A stretch of DNA of 37,387 nt, taken from the NCBI GenBank assembly GCA_025057135.1, contig JANWXY010000092.1, forward strand, positions 1 through 37,387, in the 5' to 3' direction. The DNA comes from Bacteroidia bacterium. Its GTDB lineage: Bacteria > Bacteroidota > Bacteroidia > SpSt-205. Both the position numbers and the translations under genes were made by a program. The notes under the pieces were generated by a model. It was not told the origin of the DNA. It saw only the letters and a list, made by a program, of their open reading frames with translations, and made no database searches. Below, piece after piece: positions 473-15,690 of the stretch (position 1 is the stretch's first letter; the number at the start of each line of letters is the position of its first letter).

Positions 473-1258
473 CTATTCCCTCAGGCGTCCCCAAGCTGAG
501 CTCTCGGCCGCAGCCCTCTCTATCATGTAATGGGCTTGCTCTACCCCCAAGTACTTGTCAATCACCCAGTGTAAGCCATAGATTACGGGTGTAAGTATCA
601 GTGCCATTCCAGCTTTGTAGGTGTAGTTCAGTAGAGCTATGACGCTGACTTGCGCTAAGCTCCAGCCTGCGCCCCAGTAGAAAGCGATGTAAAGTACGAC
701 GAAACTATCCACGAGCTGAGAGATTAGGGTAGAACCGGTCGCCCTCACAGCTAACCAGCGCCCTTTCGTCAGGCGGCGTAACCAGTGAAAACTAATCACA
801 TCTATCAGCTGACCAATCAAAAAGGCAACCAGAGACCCTAAAACTATCCAAAGGCTTTGCCCAAAAATCGCTTGAAAAGCGTCAGGCATGTAAAGGCGCC
901 CGTTAGGAGCATTGCGCCAGAGCCAGAAATCCGCCGGCGGTAGAAGGATGGCTATGCCCACCATCAGAAAAGCATATGAGATTATTCCAATGGCAAGCCA
1001 GGACAGAAATCTGACGGCTCGCAGCCCAAAGTACTCATTGATAATATCAGTAGTGATAAAAACCCAGGGCCAGAGGAGAACTCCCGCTGATAAGGCCATC
1101 GTCAGAGGGCCCTGCCCAAATAGAAAGAATGGCCGAGTCGGTAGTCCGAAGGCGCGTTCTAAAGCAAATATTTTGACCCCGATGAACTCTGCAATCAAAG
1201 CATTGCTCAAAAAAAATGCTGAGAGGATAATGAATAAGCGTTGAGCCTTGCTGCTCAA
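473..1258 (-). CDS. yhhQ: Queuosine precursor transporter, YhhQ/VUT family
   Basis: A 261-residue, very hydrophobic protein with about six membrane segments. Family motifs include FIGVKIFAL near the N-terminus, FITTDIINEYFG (residues about 67-78) and a VRATGSTLISQLVDS segment typical of the YhhQ/vitamin-uptake family. Known members import 7-deazaguanine precursors of queuosine across the inner membrane. The start is TTG at 1258: no in-frame ATG lies near the N-terminus, and the TTG overlaps the rnz stop as TTGA, which fits translational coupling. It is the last gene of the long minus-strand run. Family assignment is firm; the exact substrate is inferred from the family. Confidence 0.88.
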   Translation of the reverse strand: MSSKAQRLFIILSAFFLSNALIAEFIGVKIFALERAFGLPTRPFFLFGQGPLTMALSAGVLLWPWVFITTDIINEYFGLRAVRFLSWLAIGIISYAFLMVGIAILLPPADFWLWRNAPNGRLYMPDAFQAIFGQSLWIVLGSLVAFLIGQLIDVISFHWLRRLTKGRWLAVRATGSTLISQLVDSFVVLYIAFYWGAGWSLAQVSVIALLNYTYKAGMALILTPVIYGLHWVIDKYLGVEQAHYMIERAAAESSAWGRLRE

Positions 1259-2166
1259 GGGAATGTGATGGTTTGCCCTTCTTCCACCAAATAAGTTTCT
1301 GGGAAAAACTGCCGAGCTTCTTCCAGTAAAGGAAGGAGGTTTCTGTACCTCGTAGAATAATGTCCTATGTAGAGCCGCTGAGTTTTACTGGCAGAAGCGG
1401 TGAGAGCGGCTTCGCGAGCGGTACTGTGGAAAGTCTGCGCAGCACGCTGCTGGTGTTCTGTAAGAAAAGTCGCCTCATGATAAAGTACTGTGACACCTGA
1501 GATGAAGTCTGCAGTCTGCTGGGAAAACATTGTGTCCGTACAGTATGCGTAGCTTTTGGGGGGAGATGGGGGTAAGGAAACGGAATCCCAAGTGATTTCT
1601 TGTCCATTATACTCTACCACTCCCTTTTGACGTAGGATGGGGAGGAGGCTTTCTGGAAGCCCGAGTTTAGAAAATTTTTCAGTGTCTAAGCGCTTAGGTT
1701 TGGGTTTTTCAGCGAAAAGGTAACCTATGGTAGGTACTCCATGCCTGAGAGGGAATGTCCATATCTCTATGCGTGCGTCTTCCCATAAAAGAACCTTTTC
1801 TCGGCGTAAAAAAACCTCTCTTACATATAGAGGGTAACGAAGGGCCGCAAATGTCCCGAGAAGCTGAAGCTCAATCAGATTGCGTAATCCACTTGGCCCG
1901 AAGATATACAAGGGCCTCTGGTGCCCCTGCATATGTAGCGTGGTGAGTAGCCCACCTATGCCTGCGACATGGTCCGCATGGAGATGAGAGATAAATATCG
2001 CTCTAAGCTTATGGAGGGGGAGGCGATACCGCAGTATTTGATGCTGAGTCGCCTCCCCACAATCTATAAGCACATGCGTACTTTCATACTGAAGCCATTG
2101 AGCAGAATGGTGGCGGCCATGCAAGGGCATGGCGCTACTGCTTCCCAAAATGCGGACAGAAAACAT
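1255..2166 (-). CDS. rnz: Ribonuclease Z
   Basis: A 303-residue metallo-beta-lactamase-fold protein of the usual short-form RNase Z length. The zinc motif HLHADH is at residues 61-66 and is followed by VAGIGGLL. Further signatures are GSSSAMP at the N-terminus, LIDCGEATQHQ (33-43), YHEATF, and a late GHYSTRY that supplies the C-terminal zinc His. RNase Z removes 3' trailers from tRNA precursors in the cytoplasm. The ATG at 2166 follows the STAS gene stop by three bases, and the stop overlaps the yhhQ TTG start. Confidence is high because both the zinc motif and the RNase-Z-specific C-terminal motif are present. Confidence 0.93.
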   Translation of the reverse strand: MFSVRILGSSSAMPLHGRHHSAQWLQYESTHVLIDCGEATQHQILRYRLPLHKLRAIFISHLHADHVAGIGGLLTTLHMQGHQRPLYIFGPSGLRNLIELQLLGTFAALRYPLYVREVFLRREKVLLWEDARIEIWTFPLRHGVPTIGYLFAEKPKPKRLDTEKFSKLGLPESLLPILRQKGVVEYNGQEITWDSVSLPPSPPKSYAYCTDTMFSQQTADFISGVTVLYHEATFLTEHQQRAAQTFHSTAREAALTASASKTQRLYIGHYSTRYRNLLPLLEEARQFFPETYLVEEGQTITFP

Positions 2167-2169
2167 CAG

Positions 2170-2742
2170 TTAATCTTCCGTGTCATCCTCATCCTCCTCA
2201 TCATCCTCCTCCCAGTCATCCTCTTCCCAGTCTTCATCTTCCCATTCTTCATCTTCCCAGTCCTCGTCGTCCTCCCACTCTTCGTCTTCCCAATCTTCAT
2301 CTTCCCAGTCTTCGGTTTCTTCATCTTCCCACTCTTCCTCTTCTTCCCACTCTTCTTCTTCCTCTTCTGCTTCTTCGGCTTTCTTTGACAACAGGGCTGT
2401 TTGCTGATGCATGTACTTCAAGGCATCTTCTATGTTCGTCATAAGCGTGAAGATTTCGTTCAGTTTAGAGAGAGAAAAGACGGATTGCAGGGCGGGTGTA
2501 GGAGCTACGACAGCGAGCGACCTACCTGCCTGCAGCAGCATCCGCCGCAAAAGTAAAAGAGCGCTAAGCACTGAGCTATCTAAGGTCTGGACTGCGCTTA
2601 GGTCTATAATCACTCCGTCTGTGGAGCTATGAGCGAGAACAGTGAGCTGAGACTTGAGATCGGGAGTAAGTGCAGCATTTAGGCGCTCTTCCATGGGGCG
2701 AAAGATGACGGTTTCACCGACTGTTTCCACTTGATATTTCAT
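2170..2742 (-). CDS. STAS-domain (anti-sigma-factor-antagonist-like) protein with acidic Trp-repeat tail
   Basis: Residues 1-110 form a STAS domain of the SpoIIAA/RsbV type, including VIIDLSAVQTLDSSVLSALL. Ser56 in LDSS aligns with the Ser phosphorylated by partner-switch kinases in SpoIIAA. Residues 121-190 are almost entirely Glu, Asp and Trp. Trp occurs at 132, 138, 146, 151, 156, 162, 167, 172 and 177, mostly every five residues. The tail is probably disordered and strongly negative, and I know of no function for it. The start overlaps the MBL gene stop (ATGA). A PP2C phosphatase and HATPase-like kinases lie in the same run of genes, so this protein may be another substrate of that switch; that is inference. 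Confidence 0.88.
   Translation of the reverse strand: MKYQVETVGETVIFRPMEERLNAALTPDLKSQLTVLAHSSTDGVIIDLSAVQTLDSSVLSALLLLRRMLLQAGRSLAVVAPTPALQSVFSLSKLNEIFTLMTNIEDALKYMHQQTALLSKKAEEAEEEEEEWEEEEEWEDEETEDWEDEDWEDEEWEDDEDWEDEEWEDEDWEEDDWEEDDEEDEDDTED
2212..2349 (-). repeat. Degenerate 15-base tandem repeat encoding W-(E/D)4 pentapeptides
   Basis: This lies inside the STAS gene tail. On the plus strand the recurrent unit is close to TCTTCATCTTCCCAG, one Trp plus four acidic residues per 15 bases. Nine Trp codons (CCA on the plus strand) mark the units from 2347-2349 down to 2212-2214. Copies differ in the third base and in Glu/Asp choice, so the array is old or kept for protein sequence rather than freshly expanded. 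Confidence 0.85.
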
Positions 2743-4836: not shown

Positions 4837-5304
4837 CTATTTACCTTTCAAAGCCTCCATAAGTTCTACCGCCCGGACAGGGTCAAAAATCAAGTAATAT
4901 AACATGAATAGAACAATAACTGTAAGGACCGCGACCATCACAACCAGAGCTATTTGAATGCGTCCGACCCGTTTATCTATTACGTTCTGCTCTTCGGACA
5001 GCCTCTGATAGTTATGGATGATGGCTTTTTGTGTCTTTTTTGCTTCTTCTTCTTTCTCACGCAGGAGCTGGTTTTGTCTCTCGAGCTCTGCATTCATCTC
5101 ATCCAGTCGCCGTTGATTTCGGTCTGCTATTCGGGTGAGAGTTCGGGCTTCGCCGAGGAGGCGCTCGTACTCCTCTACCATCCGCTTATAGCTCTGCTGC
5201 CATTCTGCATCCGTCATGTCTACACGCGCCAAAGTGAGGCGAGCTTCCTGCAGGAGCTGCAGCTCCTCTGCAAAGAGATTTTTATTACTCCCTACTGTGC
5301 TCAT
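4837..5304 (-). CDS. Coiled-coil, C-terminally membrane-anchored protein (paralogue 1)
   Basis: A 155-residue protein of no family I can name. Residues 10-60 are helical and contain FAEELQLLQEAR, DAEWQQSY and a YERLL...LTRIADRNQRRLDEM run. A charged coiled coil occupies about 45-112. One membrane segment (about 116-140) is followed by only about 15 residues, so it is tail-anchored with the coiled coil in the cytoplasm. The N-terminal half is clearly homologous to the next gene upstream, so the two arose by tandem duplication. The linker resembles the helix before output domains in some SpoIIE phosphatases and cyclases. I chose ATG 5304; an in-frame TTG at 5313 belongs to the promoter box TACCTTTG. 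The location beside SiaB/SiaC suggests a membrane scaffold or signal input (inference). Confidence 0.8.
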   Translation of the reverse strand: MSTVGSNKNLFAEELQLLQEARLTLARVDMTDAEWQQSYKRMVEEYERLLGEARTLTRIADRNQRRLDEMNAELERQNQLLREKEEEAKKTQKAIIHNYQRLSEEQNVIDKRVGRIQIALVVMVAVLTVIVLFMLYYLIFDPVRAVELMEALKGK

Positions 5305-5310
5305 ACTAAG

Positions 5311-5318
5311 CAAAGGTA
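5311..5318 (-). promoter_or_regulatory. Bacteroidota -7 promoter box TACCTTTG
   Basis: Perfect TAnnTTTG on the minus strand, six bases before ATG 5304, in the 28-base gap between the two coiled-coil genes. Its last three bases are an in-frame TTG, which can pass for an upstream start codon. Confidence 0.6.
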
Positions 5319-5332
5319 CGACCAGAGCTGCA

Positions 5333-5788
5333 TCATTGAAGACCTCGGACTTTTTTTACAAACTGTATCATAGTATCCGTATCTATAAAGATGTAGTATG
5401 AAACAAACGCTACTATCACTAAAAGCACTGCGAAGAGCACGATGAGCATCATCCATGTGCGTCCCATCTGGTCGTACAGCGTGTCACGCTCCTTGACTTT
5501 TTTATGAATTTCTTTTTGCTGGTGTTCTATTTGGCGTTCTAAGCCTTCTACCTCATGGCTAAGCGCTTTTCTTTGGAGTTCAAGTTGCGCCCGAGCCTTC
5601 TCAAGCTTCGATTCAAGTTGGTCGGCTTGATGGGTAAGGACTTGGACGACCTTGAGAAGGCTTTCGTAGTTTTCCACAATCTTCAAATAAGCATCGCGCC
5701 ATTCTTGGGAAGTTATGCCGCCGCGCTCAGCTTTGGCGCGTGCCTCTTGTAGAAAAGCAGTTTCTTCTGGAAAGTACTGATCTTTCAT
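5333..5788 (-). CDS. Coiled-coil, C-terminally membrane-anchored protein (paralogue 2)
   Basis: A 151-residue protein with the same plan as its downstream paralogue. An N-terminal helix contains FPEETAFLQEAR and SQEWRDAY. Then come VENYESLL and LTHQADQLESKLEKA, a long coiled coil (about 40-108) and one membrane segment (about 111-134) with about 17 residues after it. Shared positions between the two include EE, LQEAR, EW, VE.YE..LL, LT..AD. The coiled coil itself has diverged, which would let the two form a heteromer or bind different partners. The ATG at 5788 overlaps the SiaC stop (ATGA), which suggests coupled translation with SiaC and a role in the same switch. Function unknown. Confidence 0.82.
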   Translation of the reverse strand: MKDQYFPEETAFLQEARAKAERGGITSQEWRDAYLKIVENYESLLKVVQVLTHQADQLESKLEKARAQLELQRKALSHEVEGLERQIEHQQKEIHKKVKERDTLYDQMGRTWMMLIVLFAVLLVIVAFVSYYIFIDTDTMIQFVKKVRGLQ

Positions 5789-6159
5789 ACAGGCACTAGC
5801 TCAAAAGGCACATCTAACAGGGCTTGATAATCCTGTCCTGTTTCTGCCATATCTTCATCGTCAGAATCATAATGCCATCGTATGGATACCTTATGACCGC
5901 TTTTGTGCATCCGCTCTAACTTCCTAAATATGTCTAACAGACACTTGGAGGAGCTGGTATTGAAGTATTCTAACTGAAACTTGAAGGTGGTCTCTGGCAG
6001 TGGGGATTTGCCGTATTCTTCTATCCAGTCCAAAACCTTTCTGTAGAAGCCAATGGCATCCTCGGGAATACTTCTGCCAGTTATTTCAAATATCCCCAAA
6101 TCAGCGTTCAGGATGACCTTGGGGGTTTTTGAGGTAGGTTCTATAACAAGGTTTCGCAT
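5785..6159 (-). CDS. siaC: SiaC family regulatory phosphoprotein (DUF1987), copy 1
   Basis: A 124-residue protein matching the SiaC/DUF1987 family along its whole length. It has IEPTSKTPKV, ITGRSIPEDAIGFY, YFNTSSSK (residues 65-72) and the acidic DSDDEDMAETGQDYQALL near the C-terminus. In Pseudomonas SiaC, Thr68 is phosphorylated by SiaB and dephosphorylated by the PP2C phosphatase SiaA, and the unphosphorylated form binds a diguanylate cyclase. Thr68 is present here at the same number. No GGDEF gene is visible in the window, so the effector is unknown. The stop overlaps the coiled-coil gene start by four bases. A perfect TAACTTTG box lies eight bases before the ATG. Confidence 0.93.
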   Translation of the reverse strand: MRNLVIEPTSKTPKVILNADLGIFEITGRSIPEDAIGFYRKVLDWIEEYGKSPLPETTFKFQLEYFNTSSSKCLLDIFRKLERMHKSGHKVSIRWHYDSDDEDMAETGQDYQALLDVPFELVPV

Positions 6160-6176: not shown

Positions 6177-6740
6177 TTACTTCTCAGGTATGCGCGACAC
6201 ACGGGCTTCCAAGCTGAAAAATGAATACTTGTCATTGACGGGGTGAAAGTCATATCCCAGACGCTGTCCCGACTTGCGAGCTATGTCTATCATACCTAAA
6301 CCAGCCGTTCCCTTTTCGCTAAACCCCGTTCCTGTTAGAATCTCTTGATACAGCTGCTTGAGCTCTTCCTTGGATGCTCTATTGATTCTATCCAAGCGCG
6401 CTTTGACTTCTGGAATGCGATCATTCATCACATGATTGCCTGTGATGATATAGTAATCCTTTTCCTCGCGTCCGATCATGAGGAGGGCTGTTTTGTCTCG
6501 GACGGGATTGGAGGGGTCAGTGGGGGGTAGGGCGTCTAAATGATGGTATACGTTCTGGAGACATTCTACCATCACGTTGAATACGCGTTTCTTCACTTTA
6601 CGGTCTTCTCCCTCGCCTTCCAGCTTGTTTTCTACCATTTGGAGAATAGATGATACTAAGTCAGCTGTAACCTCACCTTGATACACAAAGATGATGTTAT
6701 TCAGCTGCATATTCTTGTAGTAGCTATAAGTCATGCTCAT
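6177..6740 (-). CDS. siaB: SiaB family protein kinase (DUF6272), catalytically intact copy
   Basis: A 187-residue SiaB-type kinase with a GHKL ATPase-like fold, expected to phosphorylate SiaC on Thr68. The N-box is FNVMVECLQNVYHH with Glu59 and Asn63 in the E-x3-N position. The G-box is GTAGLGMIDIARKSG (residues 144-158) with Gly147 and Gly149 present. The C-terminal YSFFSLEARV strand is shared with the other copy. ATG 6740 is used here; a second ATG at 6734 is equally possible. Five bases separate it from the upstream SiaC gene and 17 from the downstream one. No TAnnTTTG box precedes it, so it depends on upstream transcription. Confidence 0.92.
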   Translation of the reverse strand: MSMTYSYYKNMQLNNIIFVYQGEVTADLVSSILQMVENKLEGEGEDRKVKKRVFNVMVECLQNVYHHLDALPPTDPSNPVRDKTALLMIGREEKDYYIITGNHVMNDRIPEVKARLDRINRASKEELKQLYQEILTGTGFSEKGTAGLGMIDIARKSGQRLGYDFHPVNDKYSFFSLEARVSRIPEK

Positions 6741-6745
6741 AGGCT

Positions 6746-7129
6746 TCAGGATTGAACTTTTACTGAAAGTTCTATGGGAAGGTTCAGTAGAGCTTGATAA
6801 TCTTGACCCGTTTCTTCCATATCCTCATCGTCCTCATCGTAGTACCATGTAACGCGCACCTCATACCCCGCATTGTGTATGGCCTCTAAGCGCTTCAGCA
6901 CTTCTAAGATGTTTTTAGAGCTGCTGGTATTGAAATATTCCAAGTCAAAACGGACATGCGTAACGGGGAGGGGTTGCTTGGAATAGCCATCAAGCCAGTC
7001 AAAAATTGGAGTGTAAAAGCCTACCGAGTCCTCCGGTATACTTCGCCCTGAGAACTCAAAAATTCCATTCTCCGGGTCCAAGATAACCCTCGGAGTTTTA
7101 TGGGTAGACTCTATGCGTAAGGCTTCCAT
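6746..7129 (-). CDS. siaC: SiaC family regulatory phosphoprotein (DUF1987), copy 2
   Basis: A 127-residue SiaC paralogue. It has IESTHKTPRV, FSGRSIPEDSVGFYTPIFDWL, YFNTSSSK (residues 65-72, Thr68 retained) and EDDEDMEETGQDYQALL. It keeps every family hallmark, so unlike its SiaB neighbour it is not degenerate. The two SiaC copies are clearly similar but differ across the helices that contact partners, for example WIEEYGKSPLPET versus WLDGYSKQPLPVT, so they may have separate effectors. It is separated by six bases from the degenerate SiaB upstream and five from the intact SiaB downstream. Confidence 0.92.
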   Translation of the reverse strand: MEALRIESTHKTPRVILDPENGIFEFSGRSIPEDSVGFYTPIFDWLDGYSKQPLPVTHVRFDLEYFNTSSSKNILEVLKRLEAIHNAGYEVRVTWYYDEDDEDMEETGQDYQALLNLPIELSVKVQS

Positions 7130-7135
7130 ACGGCA

Positions 7136-7708
7136 TTATGATTTAGACTTTTTTATGCGCGCTTCCAGAGAGAAAAACGAATCGGTGTCATCCAGGTACT
7201 CAAAGTAGTACTGAAGAAAGTCGTGGGACTTTCTGGCTAAGTCCAAGATGCTTATGGTAGGAATGCCACCGACTTGGGGGGGCATACCGGTGTTCTTGTT
7301 TTGAAGGAGGTCGTGATAGGCATCCCGAAGTTGCTCATCCTGTAAGCTATTTACCCAATCTATGAAAGATTTTATCATATAGACAGAACTGCTGGATACA
7401 CGGCGCCCTATGCTCACAGAGTATAGATAGGGCAGCTGTCGAACCAATAAAGTGGCATTCCCACGGTTCTGGTCCTCTCCGAGAGTGAAAGATTCCACCA
7501 TGATATTGAATAGCTTTTTGCTTACTCGGCGTTCCTCTTTAGTATCTTCTAACCGATACTCGACGAGATTCAAAACGTCTACCATGAAATCAGTCGTGAT
7601 AGGACCATTGTACATAAAGACAATGTTATTGTCCAGCATATTCCGATACAGGGGATATGCGTAGCTTAGCGCAGGCTCGTGTAAGAGCTCAGAATCTACG
7701 GCAATCAT
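7136..7708 (-). CDS. SiaB family protein with degenerate ATP-binding site (predicted pseudokinase)
   Basis: A 190-residue paralogue of the SiaB at 6177-6740. Both ends align well: NNIVFMYNGPITTDF at the start and DSFFSLEARI at the end. The catalytic motifs have decayed. Numbered from the upstream GTG 7714, the N-box reads FNIMVESFTLGEDQ, keeping Glu74 but with Leu78 where the intact copy has Asn63. The G-box GTAGLG is replaced by GIPTIS. About nine residues are also missing after the N-box. ATP and magnesium binding therefore look unlikely, while the fold should persist. I use ATG 7708, eight bases after a TATCTTTG box; GTG 7714 lies between box and ATG. It may bind SiaC as an antagonist or scaffold (inference). 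Confidence 0.85.
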   Translation of the reverse strand: MIAVDSELLHEPALSYAYPLYRNMLDNNIVFMYNGPITTDFMVDVLNLVEYRLEDTKEERRVSKKLFNIMVESFTLGEDQNRGNATLLVRQLPYLYSVSIGRRVSSSSVYMIKSFIDWVNSLQDEQLRDAYHDLLQNKNTGMPPQVGGIPTISILDLARKSHDFLQYYFEYLDDTDSFFSLEARIKKSKS

Positions 7709-7716
7709 ACCCACTA

Positions 7717-10951: not shown

Positions 10952-11533
10952 TCACAAAGTTATAGCTTGGATGCACACTTGTACGAAATCAGCGGCTTTG
11001 AATCGTGCGTTTGGCTCAAATAAAAGGAGGGCAGACTCGGGCATGGTCCGAATATCAGCATCTGTGGGCTCTTGGACAGCTGTGAAGTATCCCGCGCGAT
11101 GCATGAGATACATGCCGCGTGCTCCATCTTTATTAGCCCCAGAGAAAAGCGCCGCGGCTGCCCGTTTCCATCGGGCTTGGACTACCGATTCTAATAGAAC
11201 ATCAATGCTCGGCCTAGAAAAATGTACAGGCTCCTCCACCGATAGGCTAAAATAGCCTCCCGCCTCTACAAGTAAGTGGTAGTCTGCAGGGGCTATATAC
11301 ACATAACCGCCTTGGATTTGCGTTTTGTCATCTGGTTCGCAAACCTTCCAATCGTGGAGATGGCCTATAGCTTCCGCCATGCCTACTCTGGGGTTGCGCA
11401 TTCGGTGGAGGCATAAAACTATAGCTGTCTGAGGATAGTAAGGCATGTGATGTAGGAAGCTTCGGATGGGATTGAAGCTGCCAGCCGAACCGCCGATAAG
11501 CCACAGAAAAACTTCCCGCTTTTCCACCATCAT
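10952..11533 (-). CDS. CheB-type methylesterase domain, stand-alone
   Basis: A 193-residue protein consisting only of a CheB C-terminal methylesterase/glutamine deamidase domain, with no receiver domain. The catalytic triad is present: Ser16 (GGSAGS), His43 (CLHRM) and Asp136 (SGANKDGARG). GGYVYIAPADYHLLV is also typical of CheB. Normal CheB removes methyl groups from glutamates of chemoreceptors after phosphorylation of its receiver; here that control is absent and no chemoreceptor gene is visible. Two ATGs (11533 and 11530) are possible; both overlap the cheR stop. The adjacent phosphatase or coiled-coil proteins are possible alternative targets, but this is a guess. Confidence 0.9.
   Translation of the reverse strand: MMVEKREVFLWLIGGSAGSFNPIRSFLHHMPYYPQTAIVLCLHRMRNPRVGMAEAIGHLHDWKVCEPDDKTQIQGGYVYIAPADYHLLVEAGGYFSLSVEEPVHFSRPSIDVLLESVVQARWKRAAAALFSGANKDGARGMYLMHRAGYFTAVQEPTDADIRTMPESALLLFEPNARFKAADFVQVCIQAITL
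10955..10962 (-). promoter_or_regulatory. Bacteroidota -7 promoter box TAACTTTG
   Basis: Perfect TAnnTTTG on the minus strand inside the last codons of cheB, seven bases before the PEBP ATG at 10947. It could drive PEBP and the phosphatase separately from cheRB. Confidence 0.55.
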
Positions 11534-12363
11534 CTCTGCTTGCGAAAGATTCGCTCAGTGTCATTCACAGAGACTAATCGCTTGGCTGCTGAGCACCAGA
11601 AAAGGGACTCTTTCGTCCCTACCATTAGTATGCCTCCTGTGACCAAGCTATCAACCAGCTTCGTAACCACTTGATCTTGAAGGGCCGGCGTGAAGTAAAT
11701 AAGTAGATTCCGGCACAGAATCACCTCAAACTCCCCAAATGGATTTTCCGTCACGATATTGTGCCTAAGGAACTTCACATTCTGTAAAAGTTCGGGCCTG
11801 AATACCAGTTGATTATTGCTTTCCGCGGTATATTGGGTCAATGATTTTCCGGGAAAAACGGCTTGAAAGTTCTGCTCATAGAGAGGCTTGAGGCGTATGG
11901 GGTAGCGAGCCTGAGCGGCTTTTTCTATGGATATGTCATCTATATCCGTCGCAAAGATGCGCGCCTTATCATACAGACCGATTTCTTTGAGCAGGATGGC
12001 CATGGAGAGAACTTCCTCACCTGTGGATGCCCCTACGTGCCAAATCCTTATCTCGGGTAGAGTGAAAAGCGGAGGGAGAGCTTGCGTACGAAATGCAATC
12101 CATGCTGAGGGGTCCCGAAACAACTCTGTAGTAGAGACGGTAATCTCATTGATGAAGTAACGAATGTATTCGGGCTGCGTGAGAAGTCTATGATTGAGAA
12201 TAGTAAGCCCTGGGAGACCATATTTTTTTATCACGGACCCAAGACGTCGCTTGAGCGAGGCAGGGGCATAGCCACGAAAATCGTGTCCGTATTGTGTAAG
12301 CATTATCTGCATAAACTGCTCCAACTCTGCATCAGATATTTCAGGCAGGACCTCTATCAGCAC
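11530..12363 (-). CDS. CheR-type protein-glutamate O-methyltransferase
   Basis: A 277-residue CheR with the N-terminal helical domain (RRLGSVIKKYG, residues 39-49) and a SAM-binding domain. STTELFRD (77-84) and HVGASTGEEVLSMA (109-122) match the usual TEFFRD and GCSTGEE motifs, and ILCRNLLIYF supplies the late motif. It transfers methyl groups from SAM to glutamate side chains of receptors. The start is GTG 12363, four bases after the near-consensus box TATCTTTA; no in-frame ATG lies near. It is the first gene of the long minus-strand run and overlaps cheB by four bases. No TPR or receiver fusion is present. Confidence 0.92.
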   Translation of the reverse strand: MLIEVLPEISDAELEQFMQIMLTQYGHDFRGYAPASLKRRLGSVIKKYGLPGLTILNHRLLTQPEYIRYFINEITVSTTELFRDPSAWIAFRTQALPPLFTLPEIRIWHVGASTGEEVLSMAILLKEIGLYDKARIFATDIDDISIEKAAQARYPIRLKPLYEQNFQAVFPGKSLTQYTAESNNQLVFRPELLQNVKFLRHNIVTENPFGEFEVILCRNLLIYFTPALQDQVVTKLVDSLVTGGILMVGTKESLFWCSAAKRLVSVNDTERIFRKQR

Positions 12364-12389: not shown

Positions 12390-12397
12390 TACAAGTG

Positions 12398-13939
12398 ATG
12401 CAGGTTGGTAACTATGTTCTGCAGCAGGTTCTTGGCGAGGGTGGGATGGGGCGCGTTTGGTTGGCACAGCATATTCACCTCGGTACCTCTGCGGTAGTCA
12501 AGTCCTTGCATCCGCAGTATGCCCAGAATGAGCAGCTGCATCAGCGTTTTCTTGCGGAGGCACGCCTATTAGCACAGCTCAGGCACCCGGCGGTGGTTCG
12601 TTTGTACGACTTCACTATTCAGGAGGGCATTCCTTACCTGATTATGGAATATGTCCAGGGGGAAAGCCTGGAAAGTTATATTCAATCTCGTGGTACACTA
12701 TCGCTGCCGGAAATAATAACTATTCTTTCGCCGATCTTTGACGCCCTGAGATACCTTCATGCCCAGCGTGTCATACACCGAGATGTCAAACCATCTAACA
12801 TTCTGGTTCGTCCAGATGGTACGGGAAAGCTCATAGATTTCGGTATAGCCAAAGCTCTGGATGAGGACTTCAAGCTCACGAGGACCGGCACACAAATCGG
12901 TACCGCCCTGTACATGGCTCCTGAGCAGATCAAAGGTGAAGCAGTGTCCCCGCAGACGGATTTATATGCCATAGGACTGGTAATATACGAGTGCTTTTTT
13001 GGGCGTTTTCCATGGGAATGGCAAGGGCTAACTGCATTTCAAATATACCAGCGCCTTCTTACAGAGCCCCCACCGATTCCACAAACTACTCCCCCGGCGG
13101 TACAGGCCTTCTTCAATAAAGCGCTTGCTAAGGAGGTGGCTAATCGCTTTTCCTCCGCAGAAGAAATGCATCAGGCCCTCGTCGCTTTGAATCAGCGAGA
13201 CGGTGTAAAAAACAGTGCTGCTGTAGTCCATAGTAGCTCTGTATCTTCTGATACACAGGACTCCCCTGCCTTACAGAAAGATTTTACTCCTACACCTTCT
13301 CTCTCCTCTGCGTCAGTAGAAGCCTCTATTCCATCCACTGCTAAGCCGACCCGTTCGCCAGTATTTTCCCTGCTCATTCTCGGGGGCGTTCTCTTGGTGG
13401 CTGTTTTAGCTTTCTTCCTTTTCAGATTACTCAACTTCTCTGAGGATGCCGATATTTCCCCAAGGGATAGGATAAAGATTGCATCGGAGGACGATGAACT
13501 GCGAACCTCTAAGCCCGTAGACATTGGTGATAAAGTGCGGAACGACCTGCGTGAATACTTGCGTTCCTACGAGCCATCGGAAACCGTGGAAATCTTATGG
13601 GGCTCTATACCTACATCGCCGATCTATGATTACACGGGGACTTTATCAGTTCCAGTGACTGTGAATTACATAATGATTAGGGAAGATGTCGTGGAATCCT
13701 CCGAAGATTGCTATATCTCAGGGATACCGATAGGACCTCCGCTCGGCACGCAACGCGTATGGACTCACTATCGGGTGCGGTACTTATGTACTACTTCTGA
13801 TTATGCCAAGGTATCCTATGATTACAATCCTGTCTCAGACCACACCAGCTTTTCCATCCAGTTACCGCCTCGACCTGAGGATAACTGCCAAGAAGTAGAT
13901 AGGGAGCGTATTCGGGAAGAAAGAGGAGATTGCGAATGA
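12398..13939 (+). CDS. Membrane Ser/Thr protein kinase (Hanks type), first of pair
   Basis: A 513-residue kinase. The domain (about 5-265) is complete: glycine loop GEGGMGRV (13-20), Lys35 in VVKSL, Glu55, HRD at 127-129 within HRDVKPSNIL, DFG at 147-149 and APE at 174-176. A Ser/Thr/Pro-rich linker (about 270-320), likely disordered, leads to one membrane segment (322-345). About 165 extracytoplasmic residues with four Cys follow, belonging to no domain I recognise and without PASTA repeats. ATG 12398 is chosen over GTG 12395 because it sits eight bases after the -7 box and begins the conserved MQVGNYVL segment. The stop overlaps the second kinase start (ATGA). A PP2C phosphatase is encoded divergently. 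Confidence 0.92.
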   Translation: MQVGNYVLQQVLGEGGMGRVWLAQHIHLGTSAVVKSLHPQYAQNEQLHQRFLAEARLLAQLRHPAVVRLYDFTIQEGIPYLIMEYVQGESLESYIQSRGTLSLPEIITILSPIFDALRYLHAQRVIHRDVKPSNILVRPDGTGKLIDFGIAKALDEDFKLTRTGTQIGTALYMAPEQIKGEAVSPQTDLYAIGLVIYECFFGRFPWEWQGLTAFQIYQRLLTEPPPIPQTTPPAVQAFFNKALAKEVANRFSSAEEMHQALVALNQRDGVKNSAAVVHSSSVSSDTQDSPALQKDFTPTPSLSSASVEASIPSTAKPTRSPVFSLLILGGVLLVAVLAFFLFRLLNFSEDADISPRDRIKIASEDDELRTSKPVDIGDKVRNDLREYLRSYEPSETVEILWGSIPTSPIYDYTGTLSVPVTVNYIMIREDVVESSEDCYISGIPIGPPLGTQRVWTHYRVRYLCTTSDYAKVSYDYNPVSDHTSFSIQLPPRPEDNCQEVDRERIREERGDCE

Positions 13940-15690
13940 CTGTTGGGGAGTATAATATCATTCAGGAGCTTGCTTCTGGCGGAATGGGCAAGGTGTATAT
14001 TGGTCAGCATGTACATTTGGGCGGTTTAGCTGTCATCAAAACCCTCCTGCCCGAATACGCGCAGAACGAAGTTCTCGTCCGGCGTTTCTACACTGAAGCT
14101 CGGATTATGGCAGAGCTGGACCACCCTGCTATTGTAAAGCTGTATGACTTCTCCATACAAGATGGCATGCCCTATCTCGTGATGGAGTACGTTCATGGCA
14201 GGTCTTTGGAGGAAGTTCTGAATGCTCAAAGTGGTAATCCGTTGGGTATAGACTGGGTTATGGCTAACCTCAGCTCTATTTTTGATGCGTTGGGGTATAT
14301 CCATCGGAAAGATATTATCCACCGAGACATCAAGCCCTCAAACATCATAATTCTACCCGAAGGGGGCTCCAAGCTATTAGACTTCGGGATAGCGAAAGCG
14401 ATGGATGCAGATTACAAGCTTACGCAGACTGGCACGCATATAGGGACGGCGCTCTATATGGCACCAGAGCAAGTAGCGGACGGCGCTGTTTCACCCCAGA
14501 CGGACCTATTCGCAATGGGGCTGATAATATATCAGTGTCTTTTCGGGCGATATCCTTGGGCGTGGGAGGGCAAAACGCTTTTTCAGATTTACCAGACTAT
14601 CCTCACCGAAAGGCCACCGATACCAGCCGAAGCACCTGAAATAGTCCATTTTTTCTTTGATAAAGCCCTGGCTAAATCTCCCAAAGAGCGCTTCTCATCA
14701 GCCGAGGCAATGCTGACAGGTCTGCGGGAGATACAGGCTCATTTCACACCTCAGAGGGGGCCGACGCCTCAGGTTGAGGTGAAAGCCTTGTTTGAGGATG
14801 TCCTGACGGACTTCTTTCATCTGCCTGAAGCGGTTAGTTCAGACCAAACCCCCGAAGTTCTCCGTGCGGCGACCCAGAGCTCAGAGAATAGGCATCGAAT
14901 CCCTTTCCCAACTGGTATTCTATCCATAGCAGTTGGCATAGCTGTGGCCTACTTCCTACACTCCCCTCTGGGTATAGTTGGATGGATAAGTTGGACGGGA
15001 CTTATAGGTGGGCTCCTTTATACACTGCTTGGTCAACATGCTGTTTTACGCCCCTTCTCCTACCTATCTGTGGGCGTATTCGGGGGGTTTTTGGCATACT
15101 TTCACCTCTTTGCATTTCCCAAGTTCAAAGCTGCCCACGATGCTCAAATCAACATATATAGTGCCCTTCTCACAGAGACGGAGGGGTATAGGTCGGATTC
15201 GCTTTCGCCCTTAGTGCGTCGTCGATTACGGGTAAAAGGCATAGACCCCCAAGATATCCAAATAGAGATTGAGCCGCTTCCAGAGCCGCCTTCTTTCACT
15301 GATAGAGAGCTGAGTTTGCGAGAAATCGTACGAGTACTGCGAGGTAAAGTGCAGGAGATTTATCCGCTTAGTAAAGAGCTCGTTCTCAACTCCACCATCT
15401 CTTACAAGAAAAATGCAGCTGTGCGCTATTCCCAAGAAGTCAGTTGTACAGCCAGCTGTGGATTTTTCGGCCTAAGCACGTGCTATGGGACTCAGACAGT
15501 CTGGTTTCTCGCTACATGGAAAGAAAGCTGTACTATGCGGGGAAAGCTGGTGATTTCGTATGACTACGACACCAATACGCAAAAACTCAGACGAAGAATA
15601 ACCCCAAGGTTTGATTACAATCCGAAATGTGAGGAGATTCCAGGTACTCGTACGAAGCGAGTAGAATTCCAGGGAGCGTGTTTGTATTGA
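13936..15690 (+). CDS. Membrane Ser/Thr protein kinase (Hanks type), second of pair
   Basis: A 584-residue paralogue of the preceding kinase. The domain spans about 5-265: glycine loop ASGGMGKV with the first glycine replaced by Ala, Lys35 (VIKTL), HRD at 129-131 (HRDIKPSNII), DFG at 149-151 and MAPEQ. Unlike its partner it has three membrane segments (about 325-342, 345-366 and 373-393). The roughly 190-residue C-terminal part is Cys-rich (SCTASCGFFGLSTCYG) and resembles only loosely the end of the first kinase (DYNP, Cys spacing). With three segments the C-terminal part should be extracytoplasmic. ATG 13936 overlaps the first kinase stop; the upstream TTG 13930 is less likely. The kinases share activation-loop and substrate-lobe sequence, so heterodimers are possible. 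Confidence 0.92.
   Translation: MTVGEYNIIQELASGGMGKVYIGQHVHLGGLAVIKTLLPEYAQNEVLVRRFYTEARIMAELDHPAIVKLYDFSIQDGMPYLVMEYVHGRSLEEVLNAQSGNPLGIDWVMANLSSIFDALGYIHRKDIIHRDIKPSNIIILPEGGSKLLDFGIAKAMDADYKLTQTGTHIGTALYMAPEQVADGAVSPQTDLFAMGLIIYQCLFGRYPWAWEGKTLFQIYQTILTERPPIPAEAPEIVHFFFDKALAKSPKERFSSAEAMLTGLREIQAHFTPQRGPTPQVEVKALFEDVLTDFFHLPEAVSSDQTPEVLRAATQSSENRHRIPFPTGILSIAVGIAVAYFLHSPLGIVGWISWTGLIGGLLYTLLGQHAVLRPFSYLSVGVFGGFLAYFHLFAFPKFKAAHDAQINIYSALLTETEGYRSDSLSPLVRRRLRVKGIDPQDIQIEIEPLPEPPSFTDRELSLREIVRVLRGKVQEIYPLSKELVLNSTISYKKNAAVRYSQEVSCTASCGFFGLSTCYGTQTVWFLATWKESCTMRGKLVISYDYDTNTQKLRRRITPRFDYNPKCEEIPGTRTKRVEFQGACLY

Follow-up and report, generated by a model that had tools for sequence, protein, structure and literature searches.

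What does a SiaB-type protein do once it has lost its ATP motifs, when an intact SiaB is encoded two genes further on in the same operon? The locus lies in a window of 37,387 nucleotides (the whole stretch of DNA that was analysed; contig G000:C44). The window is part of a 2.08 Mb genome, 98% complete; the named genomes nearest to it are labelled "Bacteroidia bacterium" and were assembled from metagenomes (KatS3mg025/026, SKYB and SKW isolates). Read along the minus strand, the genes are CheR, CheB, a gene called PEBP-like from its translation, a SiaA-like phosphatase, the degenerate paralogue SiaBp, SiaC1, SiaB, SiaC2, CC1 and CC2. The features are as follows.

11530-12363, minus strand: CheR, upstream of siaA
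10952-11533, minus strand: CheB, upstream of siaA
7733-10474, minus strand: SiaA-like PP2C/SpoIIE phosphatase with a GAF and two PAS domains
7136-7714, minus strand: SiaBp, degenerate SiaB paralogue (DUF6272), ATG start at 7708 (as first placed), alternative GTG start at 7714, 190-192 aa
7454-7495, minus strand: N-box lesion site of SiaBp, where ESFTLGEDQNRGNA replaces ECLQNVYHHLDALPPTDPSNPVRDKT; the Glu is kept, and the Gln, the Asn, His-His and the next helix are lost
7250-7267, minus strand: G-box lesion site of SiaBp, where GIPTIS replaces GTAGLG
6746-7129, minus strand: SiaC1 (PF09345), phospho-acceptor motif YFNTSSSK intact
6177-6740, minus strand: SiaB, presumed active kinase, N-box and G-box intact
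5785-6159, minus strand: SiaC2 (PF09345), YFNTSSSK intact
5333-5788, minus strand: CC1, coiled coil and one transmembrane helix, with the diverged stalk-like motif LTHQADQLESKL
4837-5313, minus strand: CC2, putative SiaC target, coiled coil and one transmembrane helix; LTRIADRNQRRL resembles the SiaC-binding stalk motif of SiaD

The operon encodes together a SiaA phosphatase, a SiaB kinase and SiaC with its Thr motif, as in the SiaABCD system of Pseudomonas aeruginosa. The phosphatase part of SiaA matches the solved P. aeruginosa SiaA domain (6k4e, E 1e-37), the intact SiaB matches 6kko and SiaC2 matches solved SiaC (6kko/6kkp/7e6g). SiaBp shares with P. aeruginosa SiaB (PA0171; PDB 6kko) the DUF6272 family, the fold, the siaA and siaC partner genes and the equivalent of Glu61, but its N-box Asn, TGN motif and glycine box are gone, as is the stretch that follows the N-box. 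Promoter and terminator scans of the locus gave signals no better than chance.

The original prediction, that the gene at 7136-7708 is a SiaB paralogue, is borne out by 33% identity to the SiaB at 6177-6740 (E 9e-31). The PF19788/DUF6272 profile (cut-off 26.6 bits) gives 51.6 bits for SiaBp and 141.7 for the intact SiaB. With the NCBIfam model for SiaB family protein kinases (NF038262, cut-off 85 bits), SiaBp falls below the threshold at 78.0 bits and the intact SiaB lies above it at 168. Alignment of the two copies locates the losses. The N-box MVE-C-L-Q-N-V-Y-H-H of SiaB reads MVE-S-F-T-L-G in SiaBp. Asn63 had been predicted to become Leu; the Asn is gone under any alignment, and whether it is matched by Leu or by a gap depends on the alignment. 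The replacement of GTAGLG by GIPTIS holds as described. The loss behind the N-box had been put at about nine residues; the net loss is 12. SiaBp thus lacks Gln62-Asn63, His-His, these 12 residues, the Asn of the TGN motif and the glycines of GTAGLG. Both termini are conserved, as had been noted: an N-terminal Y..Y..M..N(N/S)I...Y.G.(I/V)T pattern and the ARKS/FFSLEA end are common to dead and active copies.

The fold itself appears to be kept. The AlphaFold model of SiaBp (43 homologues) has a pLDDT of 86.6, and its best PDB match is 6kko, the SiaB of the SiaB-SiaC complex (TM 0.73/0.80, E 6e-11), followed by SpoIIAB. According to this model, SiaBp is a protein that retains the SiaB fold without the ATP motifs.

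A duplicate that has lost its motifs and evolves faster than its intact copy might be decaying and functionless, an explanation that we regard as extremely improbable. The same gene was found at the same place, with an open frame and the same lesions, in 10/10 other species of the genus examined, and the order SiaA, SiaBp, SiaC1, SiaB, SiaC2 and two membrane coiled-coil proteins is found in 11/11. The identical lesion in 11 separate genomes rules out decay or a sequencing artefact. Across these 11 species every frame is open, length is constant and 67/195 columns are invariant, with synonymous sites saturated in 53/55 SiaBp pairs and a pN of about 0.21. Selection is therefore not relaxed, and the substitution pattern indicates that SiaBp is under strong purifying selection. 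In all 11 species the Glu of the N-box E..QN is kept and Gln-Asn is gone, the G-N of TGN102 has become G-R, and the glycine box G(G/T)(A/G)GLG is replaced by GIPTIS or GVPSIS. With 27 intact SiaBs of the class as reference, the genus copies keep family-conserved positions at 3/16 ATP-site columns vs 28/45 elsewhere (Fisher P = 0.004). ATP motifs have thus been lost clade-wide under purifying selection, the mark of a pseudokinase. The rate of change of SiaBp is about six times that of SiaB (median distance ratio 6.3). Two genomes from other genera of the same order show no SiaBp, an absence that is not firm because they are only 66% and 77% complete.

To follow the lineage further, a profile built from the 11 genus SiaBp sequences was run against 395 genomes of the class. 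It retrieved seven further genomes at 119-145 bits; unrelated SiaBs reached 98 or less and the intact SiaBs of those same operons 109-118. All seven belong to one other order (7/22 genomes of that order examined) and all have the order SiaB'-SiaC1-SiaB-SiaC2. Their SiaB' carries a milder lesion: the second Gly of AGLG and both His are lost in 7/7 and Gln62 in 6/7, with Glu59 retained in 7/7 and Asn63 in 6/7. The motif loss therefore marks a conserved clade that extends beyond one genome, from the 11/11 species of the genus to these seven genomes, and such syntenic orthologues rule out SiaBp as an oddity of the genus. Among 396 genomes of the phylum, no member outside the clade was found at a strict threshold. 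E..QN is intact in the remaining DUF6272 domains of the class that were aligned, and so, a few partial exceptions aside, is the glycine box. In many Bacteroidia a SiaC is preceded by a protein that joins two SiaB domains in a single chain (L045-L051, L063-L066), and in some of these proteins the second domain has a reduced glycine box (for example KEAGLG or KNAGIG).

In the SiaB tree (a quick search with SH-aLRT support only), SiaBp and SiaB' of both orders form one clade (99) that adjoins the intact SiaBs of the same operons (92). SiaC1 likewise groups apart from SiaC2, and members of both orders occur in each group (93). Long branches leave it uncertain where exactly the clade of SiaBp and SiaB' is rooted; the synteny is independent of the rooting. 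Taken with the shared order, the trees imply that duplication of a siaB-siaC cassette predates the split of the two orders, or that the cassette moved between them as a unit. They indicate that both SiaB copies and both SiaCs derive from one old cassette duplication, and that catalysis was lost stepwise. The duplication would have given SiaB with SiaC2, in which kinase and substrate were kept, and SiaB' with SiaC1. The glycine box and residues after the N-box would have gone first; later, in the line to this genus, the N-box Asn and the segment behind it would have followed. Throughout, the fold and the N-box Glu would have persisted in SiaB', together with those elements at both termini that are common to all SiaBs.

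The retained Glu raises the question of residual activity. E59 is present in 18/18 copies (11 from the genus and the 7 orthologues), and its equivalent in P. aeruginosa SiaB, Glu61, is the predicted catalytic residue (PMC7647112). Six of the seven orthologues of the other order also keep the N-box Asn and may therefore still bind ATP weakly. Some pseudokinases are known to bind nucleotide or to have other activities. Residual enzyme activity of SiaBp, together with an unusual mode of nucleotide binding, is nevertheless quite improbable, given that none of the Asn, TGN motif, glycines or helix following the N-box is left in the genus copies.

The gene neighbourhood bears on the probable partner of SiaBp. 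Directly downstream of SiaBp or SiaB', SiaC1 is found in 18/18 loci, with an unchanged YFNTSSSK Thr motif. SiaC1 and SiaC2 are separated by eight positions, five of which lie in helix alpha2, just after the Thr (hypergeometric P 0.005, for a window set after seeing the data). In P. aeruginosa, this helix of SiaC contacts SiaD (PMC8457831). As the differences lie mainly in the partner-binding helix, the two SiaCs probably have different partners. Moreover, P. aeruginosa SiaB forms a tight 2:2 complex with SiaC, which is released once ATP makes SiaC-P (PMC7647112); a SiaB without ATP should therefore hold on. From these comparisons we infer that SiaBp has lost ATP binding, that SiaC1 is its partner and that it exerts an effect on SiaC1. 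As the ATP parts have been lost and yet the gene has been kept for very long, SiaBp probably holds or senses the kinase's target and does not phosphorylate it. The leading explanation, to which we give slightly less than an even chance, is a conserved pseudokinase role for SiaBp: it would be specialised for binding SiaC1 in its unphosphorylated state, with no release driven by ATP, and might or might not also form a heterodimer with SiaB. One point sits badly with it: a rate about six times that of SiaB fits lost catalysis but is odd if the partners SiaB and SiaC1 are nearly invariant.

Two roles had been proposed for the paralogue, SiaC binding and heterodimer formation with SiaB. The former is favoured, because SiaC1 is the neighbour in 18/18 loci and its differences from SiaC2 lie mainly in the partner-binding helix. 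The latter is the main rival: SiaBp would act chiefly through a heterodimer with active SiaB, and so control how active or stable that SiaB is, or which of SiaC1 and SiaC2 it uses as substrate. SiaB does act as a dimer within the 2:2 complex (PMC7647112), and the N-terminal segment and ARKS/FFSLEA end are conserved in both dead and active copies, but they could equally serve SiaC binding, and SiaBp and SiaB are just 33% identical. The fused chains of other Bacteroidia are examples of unlike SiaB domains paired with each other; the idea that they join a dead kinase to an active one is unsupported, since E..QN and the glycine box are largely present in both domains. We consider a mainly heterodimeric role unlikely, and it could coexist with SiaBp acting as a reader or buffer of SiaC1.

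Rates and positions also bear on a link to SiaA. In the genus, SiaBp directly follows siaA in 11/11 species, and its rate is SiaA-like, with identities of 56-72% for SiaA and 61-75% for SiaBp vs 90-97% for SiaB and the SiaCs. SiaBp might then serve not as a SiaC binder but as an adaptor, either for the SiaA phosphatase or on the CheR/CheB-SiaA input side. In the other order, however, SiaA adjoins SiaB' in 2/7 loci (13/18 overall); in the five others it is non-adjacent and SiaB' and SiaC1 are adjacent there. This renders the adaptor rather improbable.

Returning to the preferred reading, in which SiaBp binds SiaC1, SiaA would produce unphosphorylated SiaC1, which SiaBp would most likely capture. 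Being without ATP, SiaBp could not phosphorylate SiaC1, hence would not release it, and would serve as a reader of its phosphorylation state or as a buffer. It may withhold SiaC1 from the membrane coiled-coil proteins or hand it to them, and the active SiaB would meanwhile phosphorylate the SiaCs.

On the output side, the operon departs from SiaABCD. It has a second, intact SiaB and a second SiaC, and the genome (98% complete) has no GGDEF match, so that no SiaD-type diguanylate cyclase was found. SiaC should therefore not act via a SiaD-like cyclase. CC1 and CC2, downstream of siaC2 (4837-5788, minus strand), are two paralogous single-pass membrane coiled-coil proteins. Searches of Pfam with both, and of the PDB with CC2, returned coiled-coil chance matches only. 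The CC2 motif LTRIADRNQRRL is close to the SiaD stalk residues R80-I81-S82-D83-R84-Y85-Q86 (PMC8457831), and every genus genome in the alignment preserves it apart from one or two changes. Diverged forms of it are carried by CC1 and by the other order's single coiled-coil protein. The genome's other siaB locus (L002) shows the same arrangement, with SiaB, SiaC and a coiled-coil protein in that order. On the strength of motif and gene order, membrane coiled-coil proteins of the CC1/CC2 type are likely SiaC targets, and may be a new class of such targets in a GGDEF-less genome. Rather more tentatively than for SiaC1 binding itself, we propose a partner-switching pathway with a built-in dead kinase. 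After a duplication of siaB-siaC, one of the two kinases would have changed step by step into a protein that reads unphosphorylated SiaC1, giving a two-channel switch (SiaC1/SiaC2) that would act on membrane coiled-coil proteins and not through c-di-GMP, with living intermediates in the related order.

Related kinases provide partial parallels. The GHKL anti-sigma kinases SpoIIAB and RsbW share the partner-switching logic and are the next-best fold matches to SiaBp, but they are active kinases that bind sigma factors, whereas SiaBp is without ATP motifs. Pseudokinases are already known among histidine kinases: DivL of Caulobacter is a repurposed histidine kinase (PMC4211667) and ChrS a pseudokinase (PMC9491836). 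Like SiaBp, these are GHKL-type kinases, repurposed or pseudokinases, kept for signalling; unlike the SiaB type, which are Ser/Thr kinases, they belong to two-component systems. Our literature search found no pseudokinase described for SiaB or for any GHKL Ser/Thr kinase of a partner-switching system, nor any paper that refers to DUF6272. Here, the steps from kinase to pseudokinase can be read as intact SiaB, glycine-box loss with the Asn kept, and full loss, each beside its SiaC. The role of a SiaB without ATP is thus directly testable on small soluble proteins.

Several further observations concern the surroundings. The L002 locus (526-2013, minus strand, contig G000:C40) is a third siaB-siaC pair with intact motifs, followed by a membrane coiled-coil protein; its type of SiaB occurs in 11/11 genus species and diverges fast. 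Two more weak partial SiaC-domain proteins (53 bits each) are encoded at G000:C26:5391-5621 and G000:C74:36155-36394. Within the window, a STAS-domain protein whose long, repetitive tail is acidic and rich in Trp and Glu (2170-2742, minus strand) is kept near the sia operon across the genus. Two adjacent Hanks-type Ser/Thr kinase-like genes, read from translation (12395-15690, plus strand), point away from the operon. Finally, CheR/CheB genes also lie upstream of the sia operon in three loci of the other order (L113, L115, L116); their presence ahead of it in two orders suggests methylation-type signalling linked to SiaA.
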